Part shown: positions 26,492-37,629 of the stretch, in pieces
Layout of the letters: each line of letters opens with the position of its first letter
Numbering within the stretch: the stretch's first letter is position 1
Assembly (NCBI GenBank): GCA_015061005.1
Contig: SUXJ01000008.1
Coordinates: forward strand, 1 to 64,000
Direction: 5' to 3'
Origin: Bacteroidales bacterium
Lineage (GTDB): Bacteria > Bacteroidota > Bacteroidia > Bacteroidales > Muribaculaceae
Length of the DNA stretch: 64,000 nt
Translations under genes and position numbers: made by a program
Notes under the pieces: generated by a model
What the model was told of the DNA's origin: nothing
Seen by the model: the letters and a program-made list of their open reading frames with translations, nothing else
The model's database searches: none

Positions 26492-27103
26492 ATGAAGAAA
26501 GTAATAGAATTTTTCAAGCGTCATATCATTATCAGCCACTTGCTCTTGATGGGAGTTGCGGCGGTGGTGATAGTTGTGCTTATAAACGTGTTTTTGGGTT
26601 GGTGGACAGGTCATGGCGACGTGCGCACTGTTCCCACGGTGAAAACTATGACCTACAGCAACGCACAAGGCATATTGGCCGGGTGCGATTTGGTCGCTGA
26701 AGTGGCGGATTCCGTATATAGTGAGGCATATCGTCCCGGAACGGTTGTCGAGCAGTTTCCAGAGCCGGGCAGCACCGTGAAGCCGGGTCGCACGGTTTTT
26801 CTGACATTGAATGCGACCACACCGCCGAAGATTCCGGTGCCGAATCTGGTCGGAATTTCATTGCGTCAAGCTCAGGCTGCACTTCGCGGCCTCGGGTTCA
26901 CTGATATCCGCGAGAAGAGAGTCCCCAGCGAATATAAAGACCTCGTGATAGCCGTTAAGAGTATGGGCGTATCGCTCAAAGCCGGCACCAGATTGCCTGC
27001 AAGTTCGGTTATCGTTATTGAAGTAGGTGAGGGGAAGGCTGATGAGGAGCCGGATATAGAAGACGCTCCAATTATAGAAAATCCGGAATTTATCTATGAC
27101 TGA
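26492..27103 (+). CDS. Membrane-anchored PASTA-domain protein
   Basis: 203 residues from ATG 26492. A single N-terminal membrane helix ('HLLLMGVAAVVIVVLINVFL') is followed by about three PASTA repeats ('VPTVKTMTYSNAQGILAGC', 'VPNLVGISLRQAQAALRGLG') and an acidic tail. No kinase domain. PASTA domains bind peptidoglycan or muropeptides, so a periplasmic wall-sensing or division role is likely (inference). An in-frame ATG at 26465 lies inside the rpsO terminator loop and is rejected. The end overlaps the pseudouridine synthase gene by eight bases. Confidence 0.9.
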   Translation: MKKVIEFFKRHIIISHLLLMGVAAVVIVVLINVFLGWWTGHGDVRTVPTVKTMTYSNAQGILAGCDLVAEVADSVYSEAYRPGTVVEQFPEPGSTVKPGRTVFLTLNATTPPKIPVPNLVGISLRQAQAALRGLGFTDIREKRVPSEYKDLVIAVKSMGVSLKAGTRLPASSVIVIEVGEGKADEEPDIEDAPIIENPEFIYD

Positions 27104-28154
27104 CATCGATGACGATGTTGCGATTGACGGCGAAGAGCTCCGCATTATAGACAGCGGAGAGCGTGAGCTGTATGAGCATTTTCGTTTTGTGGCCGACAAG
27201 GGTCAAGATTTGCTCAGAGTAGATAAGTTTCTGGTAATCAGAATGCAAAAATCCTCGCGCAATCGCATTCAGCAAGCGGCTGAGGCGGGGTGCATTCTTG
27301 TGAACGGCAAGGCGGTAAAATCAAATTATCGGGTGAAGCCGTTGGACGTGGTTCAGATAGTTATGGACCGTCCGCGCTATGAAAATGAAATCATAGCGGA
27401 GGATATACCTCTGAATATTGTGTATGAAGACGATGCGCTGCTGGTGGTTGATAAGCCTGCAGGGCTCGTTGTGCATCCCGGTCATGGGAATTATTCGGGC
27501 ACGTTGGTCAATGCGTTGGCGTGGCACTTCAAAGATAATCCGAACTACGACGTCAGCGATCCGCGGCTCGGTTTGGTGCATCGCATCGACAAAAATACCT
27601 CGGGATTGCTGGTGATAGCAAAGACTCCCGATGCAAAAACCGCGCTTGGTGCACAATTTTTTGCCAAGACAACCAAGCGCGAATACCTTGCGCTGGTGTG
27701 GGGAATACCGGAGCAGAAACAGGGCACGGTGAGCACCATGATTGGGCGCAATCCGAAGGACAGGTTGCAGATGGCGGTTTTGCCGGATGATGATCCAAAC
27801 GGCAAGCGAGCTGTGACTCACTATGAGGTGGTGGAACCGCTGACTCACGTGGCGTTGGTTCGCTGCGTGCTCGAAACCGGGCGAACTCATCAGATACGTG
27901 TTCACATGCGCCATCTCGGTCATCCGCTCTTTTGCGATGAACGCTATGGTGGCGACAAAATTCTGCGCGGAGTGCAAGGGGCTGCATATAAACGATTTAT
28001 TGACGGTTGCTTCGAAACCTGTCCGCGTCAGGCTCTTCACGCACGCACCCTTGGCTTTGTGCATCCGGTGACCGGCAAGGAAATGTTTTTCACCTCGGAG
28101 CTTCCTGCCGACTTCACTGCTCTCCTTGAGCGTTGGCGCAAACTTCCCGGTTAG
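27096..28154 (+). CDS. rluD: Ribosomal large-subunit pseudouridine synthase, RluD-type
   Basis: 352 residues. An N-terminal S4 RNA-binding domain ('VDKFLVIRMQKSSRNRIQQA') precedes the RluA-type catalytic domain. The catalytic Asp is in 'HRIDKNTSGLLVIAKT' (near 165), with 'YLALVWGIPEQKQG', 'LETGRTHQIRVHMRHLGHP' and 'FCDERYGG'. RluD modifies helix 69 of 23S rRNA; RluC or RluA cannot be excluded, but S4 plus this length favours RluD. Coupled to the PASTA gene. Confidence 0.88.
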   Translation: MTDIDDDVAIDGEELRIIDSGERELYEHFRFVADKGQDLLRVDKFLVIRMQKSSRNRIQQAAEAGCILVNGKAVKSNYRVKPLDVVQIVMDRPRYENEIIAEDIPLNIVYEDDALLVVDKPAGLVVHPGHGNYSGTLVNALAWHFKDNPNYDVSDPRLGLVHRIDKNTSGLLVIAKTPDAKTALGAQFFAKTTKREYLALVWGIPEQKQGTVSTMIGRNPKDRLQMAVLPDDDPNGKRAVTHYEVVEPLTHVALVRCVLETGRTHQIRVHMRHLGHPLFCDERYGGDKILRGVQGAAYKRFIDGCFETCPRQALHARTLGFVHPVTGKEMFFTSELPADFTALLERWRKLPG

Positions 28155-28177
28155 AATTGACGATAAACCACACCCCG

Positions 28178-28310
28178 GGAGTCGCAGCTACGCAGCTCTT
28201 GTAGGTGGGGTCGGTGCGCTAACCTCACGCTGCGCATCGCTGACGCGCTGCTTGCATGAGGCTAATAGAGAGGCGCCGCTCTGCGGCTTCAGCCAGCTTC
28301 GTAGCTAACT
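28178..28310. repeat. Single copy of the 126-bp-type intergenic repeat
   Basis: The core 28223-28264 (from CCTCACGCTGCGCATCGC to GCATGAGGCTA) is nearly identical to the three tandem cores at 52347-52640. Flanks also match: a CGCAGCTACGCAGC palindrome upstream and GCCGCTCTGCGGC downstream. It lies between the rluD stop and the ncRNA promoter. No gene is supported here; short frames across it are repeat translations. Confidence 0.85.
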
Positions 28311-28402
28311 TTATAATGGAATCTTTGCGGTGTGCTTGGGCGGATTTTTGTTGGCGAGTGGTTGGAAGAAGATACCGGAAGATGTGTTAAATTTGGGGGA
28401 AT

Positions 28403-28435
28403 ATTGAAAATTTAAGAAAAATTCACGTATATTTG
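28403..28435 (+). promoter_or_regulatory. Promoter of the interrupted structured RNA
   Basis: ATTG (28403-28406), 21 bases, TATATTTG (28428-28435). No coding frame follows, but a strongly foldable sequence begins about five bases later. Confidence 0.65.
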
Positions 28436-28439
28436 CAGC

Positions 28440-28650
28440 GCTTAGGGCTTCATTGCGTTAAGCAGACATATTTTGTGAAAGTGTTTTCGCACTGTCCTTA
28501 CAAAGAAATCTGACAGTTTCCCATTGAATCAAGGACTGACGAATAACGCTCTCTGCTTGTATAGCTATGCGAATGGCGCAGTTGGCGCGTATCTCATACT
28601 ATTCAAGTGTGGGGTAATGCGTCGTTTATTTGATTCAAGGTTTTCTCAGG
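28440..28650 (+). ncRNA. 5' part of a structured non-coding RNA, possibly 6S-like, cut by the integrative element
   Basis: Visible helices: GCTTA (28440-28444) with TAAGC (28459-28463); AGTG with CACT (28480-28493); a long central hairpin with TTGAATCAA (28524-28532) pairing TTGATTCAA (28631-28639), CTTG (28556-28559) pairing CAAG (28604-28607), ATAG-bulge-TATG (28561-28569) pairing CATACTAT (28595-28602), and GCGC (28576-28579) pairing GCGC (28585-28588). TACAAAGA (28499-28506) has no partner here. Its partner TCTTTGTA is at 33914-33921, beyond the inserted element. A long, closed, bulged hairpin recalls 6S-type RNAs, and possibly the motif I remember as 'Bacteroidales-1'. Both names are unverified. 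Confidence 0.7.
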
Positions 28651-28658
28651 ACTTCAAG
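28639..28658. other. attL of the integrative element
   Basis: AGGTT (28639-28643), core TTCTCAG (28644-28650), GACTTCAA (28651-28658). The left arm belongs to the chromosome and pairs as an inverted repeat with AACCT at attR. The right arm belongs to the element and is the inverted copy of TTGAAGTC at attR. Confidence 0.88.
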
Positions 28659-28672
28659 TCTGACTTGAAGTG
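28652..28672. repeat. 10-bp inverted repeat at the element's left end
   Basis: ACTTCAAGTC (28652-28661) and GACTTGAAGT (28663-28672) are perfect inverted copies with a one-base centre. It overlaps the element arm of attL. Possibly an extra integrase or excisionase site; it might also end the truncated upstream RNA, though no T-run follows. Confidence 0.65.
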
Positions 28673-28764
28673 AATATATTTGAAACATATTCTTATCATT
28701 TTCTTGAAATTAAAGCAAACTGACCATTTGTTTTCTATTCAGTTTATTTCATACTATTGCATTA

Positions 28765-28782
28765 TTTTCGTCCCTATTTCCG
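28765..28782 (+). repeat. Left subterminal repeat (candidate integrase arm site)
   Basis: TTTTCGTCCCTATTTCCG matches TTTTCGCCCCTATTTGCG at 33819-33836 in 16 of 18 positions, same direction. It lies 115 bases inside the left end. A related block (CGCCCCCATTAT) follows directly. The rest of 28673-28940 is A+T-rich without a gene. Confidence 0.65.
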
Positions 28783-28940
28783 CCCCCATTATTTTTTTTC
28801 TATCTGTAATTGTTCAGTTCAAACAATTGATATATTGGTGAATAATTTAATTTTGCATAAAATATTTTGGCACTTTATTTAGGTTTTGGCAAATTATATA
28901 TACCTTCGTGTCATAAATAGTAAATCAAATTGTTTTCAGT

Positions 28941-30167
28941 ATGGCGGAATTTTCTATCAGATATTGTGTAAGAACTGATAAACCTAAAAAGAGAAATGGT
29001 AAATATCCAATATATTTTAGGGCAAGAGTTCGTGATAAAGAGAGTAAAATCCCTACAAATTTAGATGTAGAGTTGGAGTTTTGGGATACAAAGAAGAACG
29101 AACCCAAACAGGTGTTATTAAGAACTGCCCTTTCTAAAAAGAGGGAAGAGTTGGAAATGTATGCATATCAAGTAATAGCCGAAGGACAATTACTTACAAT
29201 AGAATTGCTTAAAAACTTTAACTCAGGAAAAAGTAACTTAAAACCTGAGCGACAGTCTTTCTTTACATATTTTGATGAGTATATAAAGAGAATTGAGAAG
29301 GATGTGGAAAAGGGTAAGAAAAACGATGATACTTTGGCTAAATATAAAACCACTTACAAAATTCTCAAAGAATACTGCATTAAGAAAAAACATACTTCTG
29401 ATTTTCGTATATGCGACATAGATTTTAGATTGGTTGAGGGTTTTGATTTATTTATGGAAGAGGATAGAGGTAATTCTGCTGGAGGAAGATACAATAAACA
29501 TAAAAATTTGAAGACGATAATCTTGGATATAAAGAAACATAATATACCAGTCAATAATCCATATCTTGATTTTTCCATACCAAAGCCAGGAAGAAAAGAT
29601 ATATATCTAAACTCTAACGAGGTAGAAGCAATGCGAAGGCTACGTTGTAAATTTCCTCATTCTTCATCAGAGTATAAGATACTACAGATGTATTTATTCT
29701 CATGCTATTGTGGTCTTAGATTTTCAGATGTTATTGACCTTAAATGGTTGGAGGTTGACTTTGAATCGGGATTTATTCAGAAAATGATGATAAAGACAAA
29801 GGAGCCTGTCTGTACTCCGATATTTATGCAAGCAAAAACCATATTACTTGAATTGTCAGAAGGCAAGAGCTTGTTGAAGTCAAATAAAAAAGTGTTTCAT
29901 TCATATTCATCGACATCAGTCAATAAGATGCTTGTTAAGTTAGCTGAAATGGCAGGAATCAATAAACATATAACATTTCATTCGGCTCGTCATACATTTG
30001 CTACCTTGCTTCTTCAAGAACATTCTGATATATATACTATTTCAAAATTTCTTGGTCATAAGAGTATTGAAATGACGCAGAGGTATCTTAAAAACGATAT
30101 ATTAACACTTAAAAAGAAGGCAAAGGAGTTTTCTGTTTTTGGAAATACAAACTTTTCAGAAGAATAA
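28941..30167 (+). CDS. int: Tyrosine integrase of the element
   Basis: 408 residues. The N-terminal arm-binding domain (1-80, 'RYCVRTDKPKKRNGKYPIYF') and SAM-like core-binding domain (about 105-215) precede the catalytic domain. Active-site residues are visible: Arg260 ('CYCGLRFSDVIDL'), His347 and Arg350 ('FHSARHTFATLLL'), His373 ('FLGHKS') and Tyr382 ('TQRYLK'). The set is complete, so the enzyme is probably active. It should act on the TTCTCAG core sites at the element ends. It is the first gene from the left end and reads inward. Confidence 0.95.
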   Translation: MAEFSIRYCVRTDKPKKRNGKYPIYFRARVRDKESKIPTNLDVELEFWDTKKNEPKQVLLRTALSKKREELEMYAYQVIAEGQLLTIELLKNFNSGKSNLKPERQSFFTYFDEYIKRIEKDVEKGKKNDDTLAKYKTTYKILKEYCIKKKHTSDFRICDIDFRLVEGFDLFMEEDRGNSAGGRYNKHKNLKTIILDIKKHNIPVNNPYLDFSIPKPGRKDIYLNSNEVEAMRRLRCKFPHSSSEYKILQMYLFSCYCGLRFSDVIDLKWLEVDFESGFIQKMMIKTKEPVCTPIFMQAKTILLELSEGKSLLKSNKKVFHSYSSTSVNKMLVKLAEMAGINKHITFHSARHTFATLLLQEHSDIYTISKFLGHKSIEMTQRYLKNDILTLKKKAKEFSVFGNTNFSEE

Positions 30168-30192
30168 TGCATAGATAATGATGGATTATTAG

Positions 30193-30200
30193 TAATTTTG
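30193..30200 (+). promoter_or_regulatory. -7 promoter box of the structured RNA / TonB-C gene
   Basis: TAATTTTG fits TAnnTTTG. The first coding start is at 30443, so any transcript begins with about 235 bases of non-coding, highly self-complementary sequence. Confidence 0.6.
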
Positions 30201-30206
30201 CACCGA

Positions 30207-30440
30207 AATGTCTGAATAGACATGAATTGACATATAAGAAAGTGCCTCAAATTCGTTAAAATCGCCAATTTGAACAAATTATACACGAGGCACGGAGCAG
30301 CTCATATACGTGGGCTGTCTCTCCGTGCGTGTATATGAGTGTTTGGCGATACTCAACGAATTTGCAAGGAGGGCAGCCCACTTTCTATTGCAAACATTGT
30401 AGAATCTCTCCAATCGTCTGCCTACGGAGAGTCTTGTAAA
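30207..30440 (+). ncRNA. Unrecognised pseudoknotted RNA or leader inside the element
   Basis: Perfect complementary pairs: ATGTCT/AGACAT (30208-30213, 30218-30223); AGAAAGTG/CACTTTCT (30237-30244, 30379-30386); CAAATTCGTT/AACGAATTTG (30248-30257, 30355-30364); ATCGCCAA/TTGGCGAT (30261-30268, 30343-30350); GCACGGAG/CTCCGTGC (30290-30297, 30321-30328); CTCATATAC/GTATATGAG (30301-30309, 30331-30339); GTGGGCTG/CAGCCCAC (30310-30317, 30374-30381); CTCTCC/GGAGAG (30406-30411, 30426-30431). The fifth and sixth cross each other (pseudoknot), and the seventh crosses several others. GTGCCTC/GAGGCAC (30242-30248, 30287-30293) is an alternative pair. It could be a free RNA, a regulatory leader of the TonB-C gene, or a replication origin read as DNA. 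I know no family with this layout. Confidence 0.65.
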
Positions 30441-30442
30441 AA

Positions 30443-31510
30443 ATGAAGAAAGCTACAACAGCATTGTTTATATTGTTTCTATGCAGTATAAATGCTTTGG
30501 GACAAACATCTATTGTCTCTATTGGAAAGGCTGTAACTCAGTGTAATGATTTTGCTTTTGCAAAAAATATGCTCATTGGTGACGGACTTACTTATGATGA
30601 AACCCAGAGCAATGAAAACTATGCAAGCTTCTATAACTCCAAAGTACAATATGCCGATAAAGCATTATTCGTTGGTGTTTACAAATTAAGTGGTAGTAAT
30701 AAGGTTGAGAAATGTGTTATCACTTTTTATAATATAAATTTCCTATCTGATTTGAAGAAGGTTGGATATCAATATTGCAATCCCAATAATTTGTCCATAA
30801 AGCCATTTCAAGAACTTTACGAATCTGACAAATATGCAATGGGATTAAATCGTAATAAGAAGGGGTGGCTGATTGCTACATTCTTCAGATATGACCAAGA
30901 AGTTGAATTTGAGCATTTGAATGACTCCATCATCAAAAAGGATGTAGCAAACAAATACGAGGAAAATAATATTGATTATCAAGAACATAAAGTTGACTTG
31001 AATAAAATTTTATCTTTGGGAGACAATGACCCTGTTGATTACAATTATACAGAATTAGGAGAAGAAGGTATTGAGTACTTAGACAGTTTGGGGATTTATT
31101 GGAGCGACAAACTGCAAAGTTGGGTGACAAAAAATATAGAAATGATTGAAAAATTAAACAATCAAGAAAGTGCGACAAACTCTAAGGACTTAGAAAACAT
31201 TGTCTATTCTATAGCAGAAACTCCCCCCGAATTTATAGGTGGAAATGATGCCCTATGGGAGTATATTTCAAAGAAAGTGAAATACCCCAAAACGGCAAAG
31301 AAATATGAAATACAAGGTAAGGTATTAGTTCAATTTGTCGTTTCTGAAGATGGTTCAGTTACAGATGTTAAAATAACGAGGGGTGTGGAAAAGTCACTTG
31401 ACGAGGAAGCCATTAGGGTTATATCTTCTATGCCTAAATGGAATCCTGGTACAATAAATGGAACACCCGTCAAAGTTAAGTACACACTTCCAATCGTATT
31501 TAAGTTGTAA
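30443..31510 (+). CDS. Exported protein with C-terminal TonB domain
   Basis: 355 residues. A signal peptide ('ALFILFLCSINALGQ') is followed by an unrecognised region of about 230 residues. Residues about 260-355 are a TonB C-terminal domain: 'PPEFIGGNDALWEYISKKVK', 'YPKTAKKYEIQGKVLVQFVV', 'SMPKWNPGTINGTPVKVKYT'. In place of the N-terminal membrane anchor and Pro-rich rod of classic TonB it has a cleavable signal, so it would be periplasmic or surface bound and is not a standard energy transducer. On this element it might affect phage entry or exit through TonB-dependent receptors (speculation). The next gene starts 15 bases later. Confidence 0.85.
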   Translation: MKKATTALFILFLCSINALGQTSIVSIGKAVTQCNDFAFAKNMLIGDGLTYDETQSNENYASFYNSKVQYADKALFVGVYKLSGSNKVEKCVITFYNINFLSDLKKVGYQYCNPNNLSIKPFQELYESDKYAMGLNRNKKGWLIATFFRYDQEVEFEHLNDSIIKKDVANKYEENNIDYQEHKVDLNKILSLGDNDPVDYNYTELGEEGIEYLDSLGIYWSDKLQSWVTKNIEMIEKLNNQESATNSKDLENIVYSIAETPPEFIGGNDALWEYISKKVKYPKTAKKYEIQGKVLVQFVVSEDGSVTDVKITRGVEKSLDEEAIRVISSMPKWNPGTINGTPVKVKYTLPIVFKL

Positions 31511-31525
31511 TTTATTTAATATATT

Positions 31526-31813
31526 ATGAAAAGATTTGTAATTGCTTATTTCGTTGGTGCATTAATGGTTCTTGTGTTTTACATCATGTTTCCTTTAATT
31601 ATGGAAGGAGAGATGTTAGACTTGAGTAGTAAGAGAGTTTTAGACATGATGATTCCGCAAATGTTGATTTGCGGTGCGGCATTTGGAGTTGTATTCACTA
31701 TCATCGGAGCAATTTCTCAAAGGAATAAGAGTAAACAAGAAACTGAAAAAGCGATGAAAGAATATTTTGAATATCAACTGAGGAAGGAAAAGGAAAAAGA
31801 AGAAAGGAAATAA
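31526..31813 (+). CDS. Small two-helix membrane protein
   Basis: 95 residues. Two membrane segments (about 4-24 and 46-64), then a charged helix rich in Lys and Glu ('EYFEYQLRKEKEKEERK'), probably a cytoplasmic coiled coil. No known family recognised; the layout resembles DUF4199-like or small phage membrane proteins only in a general way. It follows the TonB-C gene by 15 bases and is closed by a terminator, so the two form one unit. Confidence 0.75.
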   Translation: MKRFVIAYFVGALMVLVFYIMFPLIMEGEMLDLSSKRVLDMMIPQMLICGAAFGVVFTIIGAISQRNKSKQETEKAMKEYFEYQLRKEKEKEERK

Positions 31814-31847
31814 CGGATTCTTAGGTTAACATCAACAGAACTTAATG

Positions 31848-31882
31848 AACGGCGAATAGTATAGGCTATTTGCCGTTTTTTA
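31848..31882 (+). terminator. Terminator of the TonB-C / membrane-protein unit
   Basis: AACGGCGAATAG (31848-31859) pairs with CTATTTGCCGTT (31866-31877) with one G-T pair, followed by TTTTATT. Confidence 0.85.
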
Positions 31883-31960
31883 TTCTACAAACTCAAAAAA
31901 ATGTTAAATTCTGCGTAAAACATATGATTGCCTGTTATTATATAGGAAAATGGTGAAAAT

Positions 31961-32308
31961 ATGAATAAATGTAGGACAGAATTACAAAAGTTGAGAAAAA
32001 AGCAGGAAGCATACCAAGCAGCAATTGGTCGTTTTCAAAAGAAGATTGCAGATGTACAAAATCAGATGTTGAAAATTTGTTTAGAGGTAACGGAGGAATC
32101 TAATAGAGCATCAAAGGAAGAGAAGAGATATTTATCAACAAAAGAAGTTTGTGATATGCTCGGAGTATCTGACACCACTTTATATCGAATGAGATTAGAA
32201 CAGAATCTCCCTTTTGTTAAGGTTGCCGGCAAAAGGAATGTTAGGTTTGACAAAGAAGAAGTGATAAAGTTTATGAATGAGCAAAAGCAAAGGTGGTATG
32301 ATAGATAA
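31961..32308 (+). CDS. Excisionase-like helix-turn-helix protein with coiled coil
   Basis: 115 residues. The first half is a basic coiled coil ('LRKKQEAYQAAIGRFQKKIA'). The second is a MerR/excisionase-type HTH ('YLSTKEVCDMLGVSDTTLYR', 'FVKVAGKRNVRFDKEEVIKF'). Such proteins bind element DNA to direct excision or to regulate replication genes. Its end overlaps the replication gene start by 11 bases (ATG 32298), so the two are coupled. Confidence 0.88.
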   Translation: MNKCRTELQKLRKKQEAYQAAIGRFQKKIADVQNQMLKICLEVTEESNRASKEEKRYLSTKEVCDMLGVSDTTLYRMRLEQNLPFVKVAGKRNVRFDKEEVIKFMNEQKQRWYDR

Positions 32309-33326
32309 GATAAAAATATATTTTCCAAATTCAGTTTTTTGTGGCAAGGCTGATTGTTGGAAAAAGATAAAGGAGAATAGATATACAGAAACTTATAAAT
32401 ATGCGAGAAAATCATTGTCACACCCTCACCCCCTTATTTTGGAATTCAATAAGGGGAAAAAGCATATTACAATTATGGGAAGTCTTAGAAAATGGTTACT
32501 TGGAGAAACATCACTTGTAGATTTGACTGAAAGAAGTATGAATCGTATTGCAGTACTTTTGGCAGATTCTCTAAATATGCCATTGACTGAGTTTTTGAAA
32601 GGAAAGATTACCCAATGTGAGATTGGCTTAAATGTTAGGACTAAAATATCTCCATTGAAAATTCTCCCCAATATAGTAGCATATAAATCTTTTCCTCGTG
32701 ATGATAGTTATGAGTTAGATGGTACGGTATATTTTGGTACAAAGAACTCAAGCAGGGAGATTGTTATATATGACAAGAGTAAGGAAATAATAAGCCATTA
32801 CCAAGGGAAGGATTTTGAAACTATACAAAACGTACAGAATGCTCTTGCAAAAAGGGGTTATCATTTCCTTAGAATTGAAATAAGATTACCAAATCAGAAA
32901 TCTTTTAAACATCTTCATTTTTATCAGATTAAATATTTTGGTGATATTTTATCATATTGGAAGGAACTATATTTTTTGTGGGTATCAGAGATGAAAGAGT
33001 TAATATATTATTCTGGTATCAAATTAAGCAAAGAAATGGATGTGAATGAATATAAAACTGCTGATATGCTACAAAAAGATTCTTACTATAGCGTTATGAA
33101 GAATATTGAAAAGTATTGCCATTCCAAAACCGCCAAGGGGTTAAAAAGCAAGCGGTATAAAGAACGAAAACTTGTCAAATCTGTAATAGAAAAATATGGA
33201 AATAGGAAATCATACAATGCTTATACATTGAAAACTGACATTGCTAAAACTTTGTTGTTGATAAAAAGAAAAGAAAACATAAACTTACTTTTCCTTTACA
33301 AAGCACTATGGAATGTTCAGAAATAG
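32298..33326 (+). CDS. Replication initiator resembling filamentous-phage gene II protein (G2P/Phage_CRI)
   Basis: 342 residues from ATG 32298 ('MIDKIKIYFPNSVF'); an in-frame ATG at 32277 is less likely. The order of elements fits G2P-type replication proteins: an opening beta strand, 'HPLILEFNKGKKHITIMGSL' and 'RKWLLGE' (the 'gSpaKf.hG' region), 'TQCEIGLNVRTKI', 'GTKNSSREIVIYDKSKEI', 'HFLRIEIRLPNQ', and a helical C-terminus. These proteins nick one strand of phage or plasmid DNA to start rolling-circle replication. The assignment rests on pattern only; the nicking tyrosine is not identified. It suggests an element that replicates after excision, like an inovirus or a small integrating plasmid. 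Confidence 0.7.
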   Translation: MIDKIKIYFPNSVFCGKADCWKKIKENRYTETYKYARKSLSHPHPLILEFNKGKKHITIMGSLRKWLLGETSLVDLTERSMNRIAVLLADSLNMPLTEFLKGKITQCEIGLNVRTKISPLKILPNIVAYKSFPRDDSYELDGTVYFGTKNSSREIVIYDKSKEIISHYQGKDFETIQNVQNALAKRGYHFLRIEIRLPNQKSFKHLHFYQIKYFGDILSYWKELYFLWVSEMKELIYYSGIKLSKEMDVNEYKTADMLQKDSYYSVMKNIEKYCHSKTAKGLKSKRYKERKLVKSVIEKYGNRKSYNAYTLKTDIAKTLLLIKRKENINLLFLYKALWNVQK

Positions 33327-33496
33327 CGTTATAATAGTAATAATAAGAGGGAAAAGTAAGTTATATATATCCCATATAATATAATGAAATAAAGGATACA
33401 TTAATGTACAATTAATGGAACAATAATAATAATTGATTCTACTTATATGACTGTGTGGTTTATTTCTATCAATGTGTATTGCATAGATTTACAATA

Positions 33497-33536
33497 AATA
33501 TATCTTAGGTTGAGCGTGCGAAACCTAAGATATATT
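33497..33536. repeat. 15-bp perfect hairpin downstream of the replication gene
   Basis: AATATATCTTAGGTT (33497-33511) and AACCTAAGATATATT (33522-33536) enclose the loop GAGCGTGCGA. It lies 170 bases past the replication gene, inside a 576-base gene-free stretch before the element's end. It could be a replication origin stem-loop or a terminator (no T-run). The surrounding 33327-33818 is A+T-rich and shows no gene. Confidence 0.7.
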
Positions 33537-33818
33537 GGAAGTGTCTTTCTTTGACTTGTAGCATGCTTTTATTCACAGAGTGATAATCTTATCTGCATAT
33601 AGCAAGAAGACACGTTAGAATGCATTTACAAAAGCGATTCACCCATTAAAAAACTTTTTAAGATACAAAATGGAAGGCTGTAGTTAAGAGGAACATCAGT
33701 CTATAATTTTTCCACTTCAATTAAATGAGTGTTCTGAAATACGAGCAGTATGAAAGTACAAAAACATTCAGCAGTTTTTTATATAATCGTAATTGGATAT
33801 TTATTAGTGAATCATCAT

Positions 33819-33836
33819 TTTTCGCCCCTATTTGCG
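33819..33836 (+). repeat. Right subterminal repeat (candidate integrase arm site)
   Basis: TTTTCGCCCCTATTTGCG, 16 of 18 identical to 28765-28782 and in the same direction, 66 bases inside the right core. Confidence 0.65.
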
Positions 33837-33894
33837 TACCTGAGCAATTCTTAAATCCGTATATATTTATTTTCCAGATAATTATATATTAGAA

Positions 33895-33914
33895 TTGAAG
33901 TCTTCTCAGAACCT
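33895..33914. other. attR of the integrative element
   Basis: TTGAAGTC (33895-33902, element arm), core TTCTCAG (33903-33909), AACCT (33910-33914, chromosome arm). See attL. Confidence 0.88.
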
Positions 33915-33962
33915 CTTTGTAGATAAACGAAAGTCAGCTCCACACTTTCTTTATACTGTTTT
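33910..33962 (+). ncRNA. 3' part of the interrupted structured RNA, with its terminator
   Basis: TCTTTGTA (33914-33921) is the perfect complement of TACAAAGA at 28499-28506 on the other side of the element. GAAAGT (33929-33934) pairs with ACTTTC (33944-33949) and is followed by a T-rich stretch (TTTATACTGTTTT), an apparent intrinsic terminator. Without the element the RNA would be about 260 nt. Between here and 34026 no gene is seen. Confidence 0.65.
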
Positions 33963-34026
33963 AAATCTGCCATATCGGAGTTGGATGGTATTTATTTCGA
34001 CAAATTAACCAATAAATAAATATCAC

Positions 34027-37000
34027 ATGAAAAGGCTATTTAGATTTCTAACCCTTACGGTGCTGTTGTCCGTGGGGGGATGTCAGATGGATTATGATGA
34101 TTCAGAATTAGTGGGTCGCATAGACAATTTGGAGAGTAGAGTGGAGCGTCTTGAACAACTATGTCAACAGATGAATAACAATATTTCCTCTTTGCAAGCG
34201 ATTGTAAACGCCCTGCAAATGGAAGACTATATTACGGACGTTGCTCCTATTATTGAGAATGGCATAACCATCGGCTATACGATTTCATTTGCCAAAGCAC
34301 AATCAATTACAATCTATCATGGCGAAGATGGCAAGGACGGCGCTGACGGCAAGGACGGCGCTGACGGCAAGGACGGCAAAGACGGATACACACCACAAAT
34401 TGGAGTAAAGCAAGATTCCGACGGTATTTATTATTGGACCTTAGACGGTGAGTGGTTGCTTGATGGTAATGGCAATAAAATCAGCGTTATAGGCACTGAC
34501 GGTGCTGACGGCAAGGATGGTAGCACACCACAATTAAAGATTGAAAATGATTATTGGTATGTTTCATACGACAATGGAGCATCGTGGATACAATTAGGGA
34601 AAGCAACAGGTGAGGACGGACAAGACGGAACTAACGGTGTTGATGGCAAGGATGGTGTTGATGGTTCTGATGGCAAAGATGGTGACTCATTTTTTCAGAG
34701 CATATCACAAGACGAAAATAATGTATATTTCACTCTTGCAGATGGTACGGTAATCACCGTTCCAAAAGGTCTGGCACTGAGTGTTAAATTTGAAGAGAGC
34801 GATTTGGTCGTTATGTCGCCTAACTCTACTCGCGAAATCGGTTATACCGTTACAAGTTTAATCGATCCTGTAAAGGTGGAGGTTACATCGTCTGCCGACA
34901 TTAAGGCTAAAGTGGTTGCGGAAGATGAGAGTGGTTTGACCGGTAAAATTCATGTTATTACAGGAGATGCGATTGACGAATATAGCAAAGTGATTGTTTT
35001 TGTGTCAAATGGTGACAGGGTGATTATGCGCAGCATCGCGTTTGAGAAAGCCGGTTTAGTCGTGGCAGATAACGCAATAAAGCAAGCTTCAGCCGATGGC
35101 GGTGAGGTGACATTGGAATTTTTGTCAAATGTAGAGTGTCAGGTTGTTATCCCCGGAGAGGCGCAGGATTGGATTTCGGTAGTTCCTGCCACTCGCGCTA
35201 TGGAGAAACAGACTATTACATTGAAGCTTGAGCCTAATGAGGGTTATTACCGTAGCGCAACCGTAACAGTACAATCTCCCGATGGCACTCTTAAATTGGA
35301 GTATCAGGTGGAACAGGATGGAGACTTGAATGAGATTTGGTATACGACAACTGATGGTCAAATTATAACGCTATCCGATCCGAATGTTTTTGGTGTCACT
35401 ATCGTATCAAATGAATATGACAATTCACTCGGAAAAGGAATTATTAAATTTGAAGAAAAAGTAACAGAAATTGGATATGGAGCATTCGAATTCTGCGAGA
35501 ACCTACAGAGTATGACGATTCCCAACGATGTAACAAGTATTGGACAACATGCGTTTCGTCAATGTATGAATTTACAAAATGTAACGCTTCCTAAGAATCT
35601 AAAATCAATTGGACATAGTGCCTTCAATTGTACAGATTTGCGCAGCATAATTATACCAAATGGAGTCGAAGAATTAGGCGATTGCGTATTTCGTGAAACA
35701 GGTTTAGTGAGTATAACAATTCCAGAAAGTGTCAATAATATAGGTGTCGGATTATTAACTATGTGTCCTCTTCTTAAAGAAATTAAAGGTAAATTCGCAT
35801 CAGATGATGGACGTTGTTTAATAGTGAATGGTACGCTAAATTCATTTGCTCCTAACGGCCTGATCGAATATGTTATTCCTAGTAGTGTTACAAAAATTGG
35901 TTTCAATGTATTTCGCTACTCTAATTTGAAAAATATTACTATTCCCAATGGCGTAACATCCATTGGAGAAATGGCATTTATGAATTGTGAAAATTTACAA
36001 AGTATAACTATTCCTGAGAATGTATGTGAGATTGGAAACTATGCTTTTAGTTCTTGTTTTGGCCTAAAAGAATTTAAGGGAAAGTTCTCTTCTGATGATG
36101 GACGTAGTCTTGTTATAGATAGAGTGTTGGAATATGTTGCGCCGTCATTACTAGTAAATTATACAATTCCTAATAATGTGACAAAAATTGCAGATTCTGC
36201 GTTCTCAGGATGCGAAAATCTACAAAGCATAATCATTCCTGAGAATGTAGTAGAGATTGGAGTTGGCGTATTTAGTCATTGTCCCCAACTCCGAAATGTA
36301 TCGATTGGGAATGGAGTAACTTCAATTGGGCAAACGGCCTTTTACTATTGTGAAAGTTTACAACGAATAACTTTCCCGAAAAGTATTACTTTTATGGGTA
36401 GCCATATTTTATGTGGATGCCAAAATCTCAAAGAAATTTATTGTAGAGCAATAACTCCTCCCGAAGGTAACGAATATATGTTCTTGGAAAATTCAGTTGG
36501 CCGTAAAATCTATGTTCCAACAGAATCTGTTCAAACATATAGAACTGCTCCGTATTGGGAAGATTACGCACTATATATCGTTGGTTATGATTTTTCTGAT
36601 TCAATTGTCCCAGATTACATCTCCACCGACTACTCGCAGGATGGCAAGGTGACTGCTTTGCAGACGGCGACCGTGGGTGATGGTATTGATATTGTGCTGA
36701 TGGGAGATGCTTATAGTGACAGGCAAATTGAGAACGGTACATATAAGACAGATATGGAGTATATTTATAGTAACCTCTTTACTCAAGAACCTTATAAGTC
36801 GTTCAAAGACCACTTTAATGTGTACTATGTAAATGTTGTGTCGGCTACAGAAGGGTATGAATATGGCAATACGACCCTTGACGGATATTTTGGCGATGGC
36901 ACATTGGTTGGAGGTAATGACAATACGGTATTTAATTATGCACTGAACGCTATTTCAGAGCATAATATGGACGAAGCATTGATAATCGTAGCGATGAACT

Positions 37001-37629
37001 CCGACAACTATGCCGGTACTTGTTATATGTATTACCCGACTTACACAACGGGGACTTATGGTAGTGGTCCGTCGGTGGCATATTTCCCCAAGGGCGGCGA
37101 CGCTACAACATTTGCGCAACTCCTTCACCACGAGGCATGCGGTCACGGCTTTGCGAAGCTTGCCGATGAATACGCGTATGACTATATGGGAACTATTCCA
37201 AGCGATTATGTCTCCGAGATTCAATCACAGCAGGCTGATTGGGGCTGGTGGAAGAATGTTGATTTCACGAATGACCCGACATCGATACGTTGGAGCCGTT
37301 TTATCAATGATTCTCGTTATGCGAATGAGGCAGTTGGCGCCTATGAGGGCGGCTTGACATATTGGAGCGGCGTATGGCGACCGACTGAGAACTCCATTAT
37401 GCGTTACAACACAGGCGGCTTTAACGCACCATCACGTGAAGCGATATATTACCGCATTCACAAACTTGCTTACGGCGACAGTTGGGAATACGATTACGAA
37501 GAGTTTGTGAAATGGGATGCTCGCAACCGCGCTGAAGCTCCGAGGCGTTCAGCCGCTCGTAAGCCGGCAAATTACAGGCCGACGCATCCGCCTGTAATCA
37601 TGAATAAGACATGGAAAGATGCAAGGTAA
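34027..37629 (+). CDS. Modular lipoprotein: collagen-like, BspA-type leucine-rich repeats, M64 peptidase
   Basis: 1200 residues. Lipobox 'SVGGC' (Cys19); a short coiled coil (about 25-65). A PL29/DUF4988-like N-terminal region has collagen-like Gly-x-Asp repeats (about 98-120 and 196-218), then a BACON-like domain (about 340-435). BspA-type leucine-rich repeats run from about 460 to 840 ('VTSIGEMAFMNCENLQSITI'). The C-terminal about 330 residues are an M64 (IgA peptidase-like) domain with zinc motif 'HEACGHGFAKLADEY' near residues 1034-1048. A surface-attached protease with adhesive repeats is likely (inference). It ends in 'PTHPPVIMNKTWKDAR', a tail matched by the next gene, which overlaps by 11 bases. 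Confidence 0.9.
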   Translation: MKRLFRFLTLTVLLSVGGCQMDYDDSELVGRIDNLESRVERLEQLCQQMNNNISSLQAIVNALQMEDYITDVAPIIENGITIGYTISFAKAQSITIYHGEDGKDGADGKDGADGKDGKDGYTPQIGVKQDSDGIYYWTLDGEWLLDGNGNKISVIGTDGADGKDGSTPQLKIENDYWYVSYDNGASWIQLGKATGEDGQDGTNGVDGKDGVDGSDGKDGDSFFQSISQDENNVYFTLADGTVITVPKGLALSVKFEESDLVVMSPNSTREIGYTVTSLIDPVKVEVTSSADIKAKVVAEDESGLTGKIHVITGDAIDEYSKVIVFVSNGDRVIMRSIAFEKAGLVVADNAIKQASADGGEVTLEFLSNVECQVVIPGEAQDWISVVPATRAMEKQTITLKLEPNEGYYRSATVTVQSPDGTLKLEYQVEQDGDLNEIWYTTTDGQIITLSDPNVFGVTIVSNEYDNSLGKGIIKFEEKVTEIGYGAFEFCENLQSMTIPNDVTSIGQHAFRQCMNLQNVTLPKNLKSIGHSAFNCTDLRSIIIPNGVEELGDCVFRETGLVSITIPESVNNIGVGLLTMCPLLKEIKGKFASDDGRCLIVNGTLNSFAPNGLIEYVIPSSVTKIGFNVFRYSNLKNITIPNGVTSIGEMAFMNCENLQSITIPENVCEIGNYAFSSCFGLKEFKGKFSSDDGRSLVIDRVLEYVAPSLLVNYTIPNNVTKIADSAFSGCENLQSIIIPENVVEIGVGVFSHCPQLRNVSIGNGVTSIGQTAFYYCESLQRITFPKSITFMGSHILCGCQNLKEIYCRAITPPEGNEYMFLENSVGRKIYVPTESVQTYRTAPYWEDYALYIVGYDFSDSIVPDYISTDYSQDGKVTALQTATVGDGIDIVLMGDAYSDRQIENGTYKTDMEYIYSNLFTQEPYKSFKDHFNVYYVNVVSATEGYEYGNTTLDGYFGDGTLVGGNDNTVFNYALNAISEHNMDEALIIVAMNSDNYAGTCYMYYPTYTTGTYGSGPSVAYFPKGGDATTFAQLLHHEACGHGFAKLADEYAYDYMGTIPSDYVSEIQSQQADWGWWKNVDFTNDPTSIRWSRFINDSRYANEAVGAYEGGLTYWSGVWRPTENSIMRYNTGGFNAPSREAIYYRIHKLAYGDSWEYDYEEFVKWDARNRAEAPRRSAARKPANYRPTHPPVIMNKTWKDAR

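Follow-up and report, generated by a model that had tools for sequence, protein, structure and literature searches.

A compact tyrosine-integrase element in a Muribaculaceae genome and the leader RNA that it probably splits

Introduction

What lies between two copies of the heptamer TTCTCAG on a Bacteroidales contig, and what was the chromosomal sequence that they now divide? We address this question for a stretch of 64,000 nucleotides from a bacterium of the family Muribaculaceae (NCBI GenBank assembly GCA_015061005.1, contig SUXJ01000008.1, positions 1 to 64,000 of the forward strand), hereafter called the window, for which a reading of the letters alone (the original prediction) had proposed an integrative element with attachment sites that can be rebuilt to the base. 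The interval 28643-33909 is supported as a 5.26-kb integrative element of the tyrosine-integrase kind. Its chromosomal attachment site is, with high probability, a split copy of a leader RNA, and the element itself carries another copy of the same RNA class.

Attachment sites of the element

Direct reading of the sequence confirms the core TTCTCAG and the four arms that had been described for it. The right core stands at 33903-33909, exactly as given originally, and the left core had to be shifted by one base, from 28644-28650 to 28643-28649; the string AGGTTTTCTCAGGACTT occupies 28638-28654. The features on which the argument rests are the following.

28638..28657, + strand: attL, with B arm AGGTT (28638-28642), core TTCTCAG (28643-28649), and P' arm GACTTCAA (28650-28657)
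28769..28787, + strand: putative arm-type sites on the left, in two copies spaced by 12 bp, CGTCCCTATTTC CGCCCCC
28941..30167, + strand: tyrosine integrase (Int), 408 aa, with Arm-DNA-bind_5 (PF17293), Phage_int_SAM_5 (PF13102), and Phage_integrase (PF00589)
33823..33840, + strand: right putative arm-type sites, CGCCCCTATTTGCGTACC
33895..33914, + strand: attR, with P arm TTGAAGTC (33895-33902), core TTCTCAG (33903-33909), and B' arm AACCT (33910-33914)

Rebuilt from these parts, attP reads TTGAAGTC-TTCTCAG-GACTTCAA and attB reads AGGTT-TTCTCAG-AACCT, with strand exchange presumably taking place at exact points within the 7 bp. The arms are inverted copies of each other on both sides, as had been claimed, with agreement at 13 of 13 positions (8 element-side and 5 chromosome-side). 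That chance could hardly produce this, another part of the claim, holds as well: the best of 1000 dinucleotide shuffles reached 11 of 13 (seven shuffles), and 12 or 13 never occurred. When all 675 identical 7-mer pairs between 27000-28941 and 33327-37000 were scored, the reported pair had 13 of 13 and the runner-up 9. The complete tyrosine integrase expected near the left end is present, with all three of its Pfam domains above the cut-offs and its start about 290 bp from attL.

Arm-type integrase sites typically occur as subterminal repeats, and the subterminal tandem repeats of the element look like such sites. The left repeats lie at offsets +126 and +138 from the first base of the core in the window and at +124 and +136 in two related elements (L122 and L124, introduced below), with related variants at the aligned place in two more (L123 and L125). 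On the right, the repeats start 87 and 75 bp short of the right core's end; in L122 and L124 they do so at 88 and 76 bp, again 12 bp apart. A tRNA or transfer-messenger RNA (tmRNA) gene as the target was ruled out, none being present at the site; the two tRNAs of the window are at 2189 and 16756.

Related elements and their ends

An alignment of three integrases, used to scan a single genome of each species, yielded 15 loci. At eight of them (L122-L129) the integrase was matched over at least 346 residues at 44-55% identity, and the other seven matches were weak or partial. Four loci come from a Bacteroidia metagenome-assembled genome (MAG; L122), Dysgonomonas capnocytophagoides (L123), Bacteroides sp. 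GM023 (L124), and Dysgonomonas sp. 511 (L125). They share with the window the order Int, RNA, cargo (one or more open reading frames, ORFs), Xis (a helix-turn-helix, HTH, protein), and Rep, and their ends consist of a 7-bp core with AGGTY-type arms, in support of the claim that attP and attB are both inverted repeats around such a core. Three of the four (L123, L124, and L125) sit at the 3' ends of tRNA-Cys(GCA) genes, and L122 sits at a non-tRNA site.

The ends of the window's element were compared by global alignment (200 mononucleotide shuffles) with those of L122-L125, whose sites have this design, and not with L126 and L128. Inside the core, similarity exceeded the shuffles in 4 of 4 comparisons (z 5.5-7.7 on the left and 2.4-3.8 on the right); outside the core it was at chance level in 4 of 4 (z -0.9 to 0.0). 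The contig of L129 stops inside Int. Within this element family, L127 and L128 have attachment sites of another build; each has tandem AAGACTAAATAAG copies at the left end and two integrase genes.

Is this a mobile unit or a set of fixed chromosomal genes? The latter had been named as an alternative, and the distribution of the genes speaks otherwise: Int was detected at E<=1e-60 in 3 of the 297 family genomes searched, Rep in 3 of 198; each count includes the window's own genome, and such rarity is not that of fixed chromosomal genes. At this threshold, none of 10 relatives from the same genus has Int. Over the aligned pieces, identity between the element of a Prevotella MAG (L128) and its counterpart in Muribaculum caecicola (L127 and L104, two contigs with a 55-bp overlap) is 99.3-99.6%, and the flanks of the two differ. 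High read coverage of contig L127 was considered as a sign of replication and dropped, as such a reading needs the coverage of the other contigs.

A structured leader RNA carried by the element

Between Int and the cargo, the element contains a structured RNA preceded by a promoter-like sequence.

30193..30200, + strand: promoter-like TAATTTTG ahead of the element's leader RNA
30237..30442, + strand: the element's own leader RNA copy (model core 30237-30385)

The region 30200-30445 folds with a minimum free energy z of -5.26. Two models of the RNA were used: R1, built from element-type RNAs only, and R2, built from 28 sequences of both the element type and the chromosomal type discussed below, in part taken from R1 matches, which favours R2. 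With R1 the RNA is found immediately behind Int in the window, in L122-L125, and in L127/L128; with R2 it is found further along in L126 and in the faecal scaffold MT837357. On L130-L134, where the integrase matches are distant or partial, R2 found no RNA.

A DNA search located element-type RNAs at 39 places in 33 of 297 family genomes, the window included. On 34 sequences, compensatory changes are seen in P1, P3, P4, and P5, P2 being almost invariant; such changes are likewise seen in two alternative pairings, which overlap with P4 and P5. At 33 of the 38 places other than the window's, the RNA starts 190-250 nt ahead of an ATG that opens an ORF of 60 aa or more, compared with 359 of 1900 windows drawn at random and, for the opposite strand, 1 of 38. 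An integron-like attC reading of the element's RNA was dropped by eye because what is conserved is a position shortly ahead of start codons.

The RNA class is widespread in Bacteroidales and apparently uncatalogued. R2 matches 169 of 198 family genomes (E<=0.01) and 98 of 295 order genomes (E<=0.001), counts that are likely lower bounds since only 10-15 candidates per genome were scored; across the phylum, R1 matched 4 of 198, the window's own genome included. In Rfam 15, the window gave two tRNAs only at the gathering score, and the region of the element's RNA had no match up to E 5. A literature search of open-access papers found no recognised description of such elements or of the RNA. A match to the small RNA FopS in the own genome (C2; L117, 1984-2051), at 55.4 bits just short of the gathering score of 56, is a separate RNA some 2 kb away from the leader at that locus.

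Several observations concern what follows the RNA in other genomes. At one locus seen in three genomes (L076, L078, and L086), the leader is conserved at 86-90%, and the gene behind it is exchanged in L078 and joined by a second gene in L086; homology breaks off no more than about 30 nt from the start codon and picks up again at a terminator-like sequence. In L069-L074, similar transposase-like ORFs lie on the opposite strand behind RNA-plus-gene units, the two that were scanned, in L069 and L070, belonging to DDE_Tnp_IS1595. In L095 (4916-7975), a leader RNA precedes a candidate defence operon consisting of UzuA (E 5e-83) and then a WYL protein, and the gene orders in L090-L092 and L094 look similar by eye.

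The target site as a probable split leader

The two flanks of the element and the gene behind it contain the following features.

28428..28435, + strand: promoter-like TATATTTG ahead of the interrupted leader, its TA..TTTG columns conserved in the alignment with relatives' leaders
28487..28649, + strand: 5' part of the interrupted chromosomal leader RNA (the attB RNA), with the core at its end; R2 match, containing AGGTTTTCTCAG
33910..33955, + strand: 3' part of the interrupted leader (P1 and pseudoknot strands), its right edge approximate, from alignment with intact leaders
34027..37629, + strand: protein of 1200 aa with DUF4988, BACON, LRR_5, and M64 peptidase parts; the gene separated from its leader

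TATATTTG is of the TAnnTTTG type, which we take to be promoter-like, as we do TAATTTTG. AGGTTTTCTCAG is common to 18 genomes, the second copy in the window's own genome included. Across the whole window, just two places match R2 at E<=1: 28487-28679, with 17.1 bits (E 0.053), and the element's RNA, with 126.3 bits. When the flanks are joined, pairings would form across the junction between TTACAAAGA and TCTTTGTAG and between AAGTGTGGGGT and GCTCCACACTT. In attL, GACTTCAA stands where many related leaders have GACCTTCAA, and the P1 partner strand is lost.

The crossover region itself appears to correspond to a stem-loop of the RNA class. The P6 stem has the form AGGY...RCCT, its loop being the 3' strand of P2, and the window's attB, AGGTT-TTCTCAG-AACCT, matches the pattern of both stem and loop. 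P6 pairs in 99.3% of cells, 19 cells with double changes were found compared with 5.6 after shuffling (0 of 500 shuffles), and its covariation score is above that of all shuffles. In the element's own RNA (30333-30361), P6 reads GAGTG/TACTC, a compensated departure from AGGTG/TACCT.

The original prediction had suggested looking for the joined attB in relatives. The exact 17-mer occurs in 0 of 198 family genomes; its place as evidence is taken by AGGTTTTCTCAGGACCT, which is nearly identical, and by four DUF4988 homologues whose leaders are intact. With at most one mismatch, the 17-mer is found in 19 of the 198, as AGGTTTTCTCAGGACCT in 18 (the own genome included) and as another sequence in one; the reversed pattern matched 6 genomes. 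Twelve of the 18 AGGTTTTCTCAGGACCT loci were examined; an ORF follows in every one, and R1 scores all 12 on the same strand with 16.7-35.3 bits (E up to 0.32). The weakest of these scores are not safe alone because antisense matches reach 20.1 bits. At the locus with the other 17-mer (L115), R1 gave no match. Rfam gave no match up to E 0.5 at the 17-mer sites (10 distinct sites in 11 loci).

The gene behind the split leader offers another view. Of 29 DUF4988 loci in relatives, 26 were usable (start codon reached with at least 300 nt upstream), and at four of them (L144, L147, L149, and L154) R2 matches the RNA directly upstream, 71-97 nt before the start codon, with 22-43 bits. These intact leaders hold the place expected of the split copy. 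Comparison among relatives shows a class of RNA in the position of a leader, with intact copies ahead of homologous genes. DUF4988 matches are numerous in some relatives (17 in one of them).

A number of results weigh against a target within a leader or against the element as described. The 17.1-bit match includes about 30 nt of element DNA, so that the split leader is only moderately supported by itself. On separate halves, R2 gives 5.9 bits for the left flank and 1.3 bits at the site for the right flank, whose highest score (6.6 bits) falls on the opposite strand. A gain in folding energy as large as that of the joined flanks was also obtained with random flanks (77 of 907) and with shuffles (26 of 500), which makes it weak as proof of one RNA, and 12 of 368 control flanks held a helix as good as the best found. 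For P6, neither covarying pairs (3 compared with 2.3; 182 of 500 shuffles) nor pair types (5 compared with 5.3; 479 of 500) go beyond shuffles. At 22 of the 26 usable DUF4988 loci no RNA was found. Moreover, L126 and L128, with two integrases each, have direct repeats of a different arm design; the right flank has no real match in 10 other genomes of the genus (one 28-bp match), so that an orthologous empty site was not seen there; the 23-mer of attP, which would mark the circular junction, was not found in viral contigs; and Rep has a match to Rep_trans (PF02486; 17.5 bits, below the cut-off of 29.6; E 0.0032), taken up in the next section.

Could the element be real and the link between attB and the leader a coincidence? 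The integrase would then need only an AGGTY-N7-RRCCT palindrome, which it met at an ordinary intergenic site. The relatives at tRNA-Cys genes and, in L122, at a non-tRNA site favour specificity for such a short symmetric sequence, and the fold and single-half tests just given are weak. On the other hand, the RNA model recognises all 12 of the tested loci with near-identical 17-mers, R2 has no match in 64 kb other than the left flank and the element's own RNA, and four homologues of the adjoining DUF4988 gene have the RNA in the same place. We therefore regard a coincidence as improbable.

Genes of the element and its possible modes of movement

Besides Int, the element has four ORFs.

30443..31510, + strand: cargo TonB_C protein (PF03544, E 6e-22), 355 aa, signal-peptide-like by eye
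31526..31813, + strand: cargo small protein, 95 aa, with two apparent membrane segments by eye
31961..32308, + strand: HTH_17/excisionase-family protein, putative Xis (PF12728, E 4e-14; TIGR01764 excise, E 9e-12, above cut-off)
32277..33326, + strand: Rep, of the G2P N-terminal (Phage_CRI) family (PF05144, 33.3 bits against a cut-off of 21.7)

Alignment with relatives places the likely start of Rep at 32298, and against solved structures Rep has no match up to E 1. The 95-aa protein has no Pfam or PHROG family, and a scan of both cargo proteins against PADLOC gave no match. For the putative Xis, PHROG matches to terminase small subunits are weaker than the best match, which is to an excisionase family. 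Scans of the five ORFs with Pfam, TIGR, and PHROG revealed no curated-family relaxase, coupling protein, primase, Zot/pI, coat, or packaging gene. In the chromosome, a gene for a pseudouridine synthase and the DUF4988 gene flank the element. At 28177-28308 lies a repeat, about 110-130 bp long, that has 21 other matches in the own genome, four of them on the window's contig at 52.3-52.9 kb.

How such an element moves between cells can be sketched in several ways, and a satellite, a mobilizable element, or a replicating integrative plasmid are all possible. Among sequence collections, Rep has no match in plasmids and one in the phage collection, and Int matches 5 phage and 8 plasmid records at 25.7-39.4% identity. 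Viral contigs gave no match to Rep or Int in scans that reach close relatives only.

As a PICMI-like phage satellite, the element would combine Int, an AlpA-like HTH protein, and a replication gene, be packaged by a helper, and carry defence cargo in its relatives. HTH_17 is indeed among the Pfam families listed for AlpA in the PICMI model (PMC10803314). Candidate defence genes lie within the att repeats of relatives, namely PDC-S71 in L122 and L124, PDC-S31 in L123, and an AriA/AbiLi-like AAA protein in L125; the PDC-S71 candidate is divergent from the integrase in both cases (L122 6065-7852, L124 6070-7866). MT837357, from faeces and deposited as a phage, encodes relatives of Int and Rep and, judged by eye, an HTH-like ORF, and it contains the RNA. 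However, the five ORFs include no primase or packaging gene and there is no fis site, a G2P-like Rep taking the primase's place; the viral contigs lack Int and Rep matches within the stated reach, and no helper is known. A satellite is thus conceivable, though we hold it to be doubtful.

The same gene set could belong to a non-canonical integrative and mobilizable element (IME), in which Rep doubles as a relaxase at an origin of transfer (oriT), comparable with the MobT/Rep_Trans elements of Firmicutes. PMC5704250 reports such a design for integrative and conjugative elements and proposes it for IMEs of Firmicutes. The weak Rep_trans match of Rep agrees with it but stays under the cut-off, and general family scans of the five ORFs, in which oriT was not sought, found neither a coupling protein nor a canonical relaxase family. 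We treat mobilization in this form as a tentative option of no greater standing.

A degraded, integrated inovirus-like phage would leave a G2P-type Rep and a two-segment membrane protein as remnants. The score of Rep for PF05144 fits, and a similar-looking small membrane-type protein precedes Rep in M. caecicola too. Yet no Zot/pI ATPase or coat family is present among the five ORFs, and four relatives in other genera share the compact core gene set, which points to a working design rather than to decay; decay of this kind strikes us as very unlikely.

Proposed explanation and significance

Most likely, we are dealing with an integrative element that uses palindromic attP and attB sites, attB being the P6 stem of a conserved leader between a promoter and the DUF4988/M64 gene. 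The tyrosine integrase would recombine the palindromic attP with the palindromic attB, the HTH_17 excisionase probably directs excision, and the G2P-like Rep probably copies the excised form. The rebuilt empty site would then read AAGGTTTTCTCAGAACCTC and lie between the pseudouridine synthase and DUF4988 genes. As the insertion would fall within the leader, promoter and leader would be split from their gene: the P1 partner strand would be removed, and 5.3 kb would come to lie between the promoter-like TATATTTG and the DUF4988/M64 gene. The element brings its own copy of the RNA class as the leader of its cargo gene. We infer that the split copy was formerly functional and that expression of the DUF4988 gene was lost, as we infer any transfer.

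More speculatively, the RNA class may be a portable leader for variable genes, often of the mobile or defence type, and P6 may double as a DNA docking palindrome for the integrases of RNA-carrying elements, an idea that we put forward with considerable reserve. If it is true, one and the same sequence would be selected both for its RNA fold and as an integration site, and the GAGTG/TACTC version of P6 in the element's own RNA could avoid self-integration.

What can be drawn from this locus? It yields attachment sites defined to the base and putative arm sites, and it places a compact Bacteroidales integrative element in a family open to comparison. Its integration site is apparently tied to a leader RNA that R2 detects in most sampled genomes of the host family and that is unmatched in Rfam 15. 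If the RNA is a real regulator, it would constitute a new, testable class. If P6 is a preferred attB, this would explain why attB is palindromic and how elements could switch off neighbouring genes.

Comparison with known systems

The NBU1/NBU2 and Tn4555 class comprises small integrative elements of Bacteroidales with tyrosine integrases. The element described here resembles that class, also covered in PMC5704250, in its tyrosine integrase, its excisionase-like protein, and its site-specific integration at a short core. It differs in having no MobP relaxase family among its ORFs, in its size of only 5.3 kb, in its G2P-like Rep, in its probable leader RNA target, and in the structured RNA between Int and cargo.

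With the PICMI satellites of Vibrionaceae, as described in PMC10803314, it has in common a minimal set of Int, an HTH_17/AlpA-like protein, and one replication gene, few variable genes, and, in its relatives, candidate defence cargo. Here, in contrast, a G2P-type Rep replaces the primase (DUF3987/DUF5906 are not among the five ORFs), there is no fis site, and the host belongs to Bacteroidales. Firmicutes IMEs with relaxases resembling rolling-circle replication initiators (PMC5704250) likewise combine an integrase with a single rolling-circle-type initiator, but they come from a different phylum, and the Rep described here passes the Phage_CRI cut-off and not that of Rep_trans.

A counterpart deposited as a phage is MT837357.1, a 7,042-bp faecal scaffold named 'Bacteriophage sp.', with its related Int and Rep, HTH-like ORF, and RNA of the same class. 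It also encodes a WYL protein; its Int is 26.9% identical, and its cargo differs.

Finally, integration into tRNA and tmRNA genes (Islander, PMC4383910) provides a parallel for the target itself, since there too the crossover palindrome coincides with a stem and loop of an RNA-coding sequence. In the present case, however, that RNA would be the leader of a protein gene and a member of a multi-copy class, and the leader seems to be broken by the insertion.

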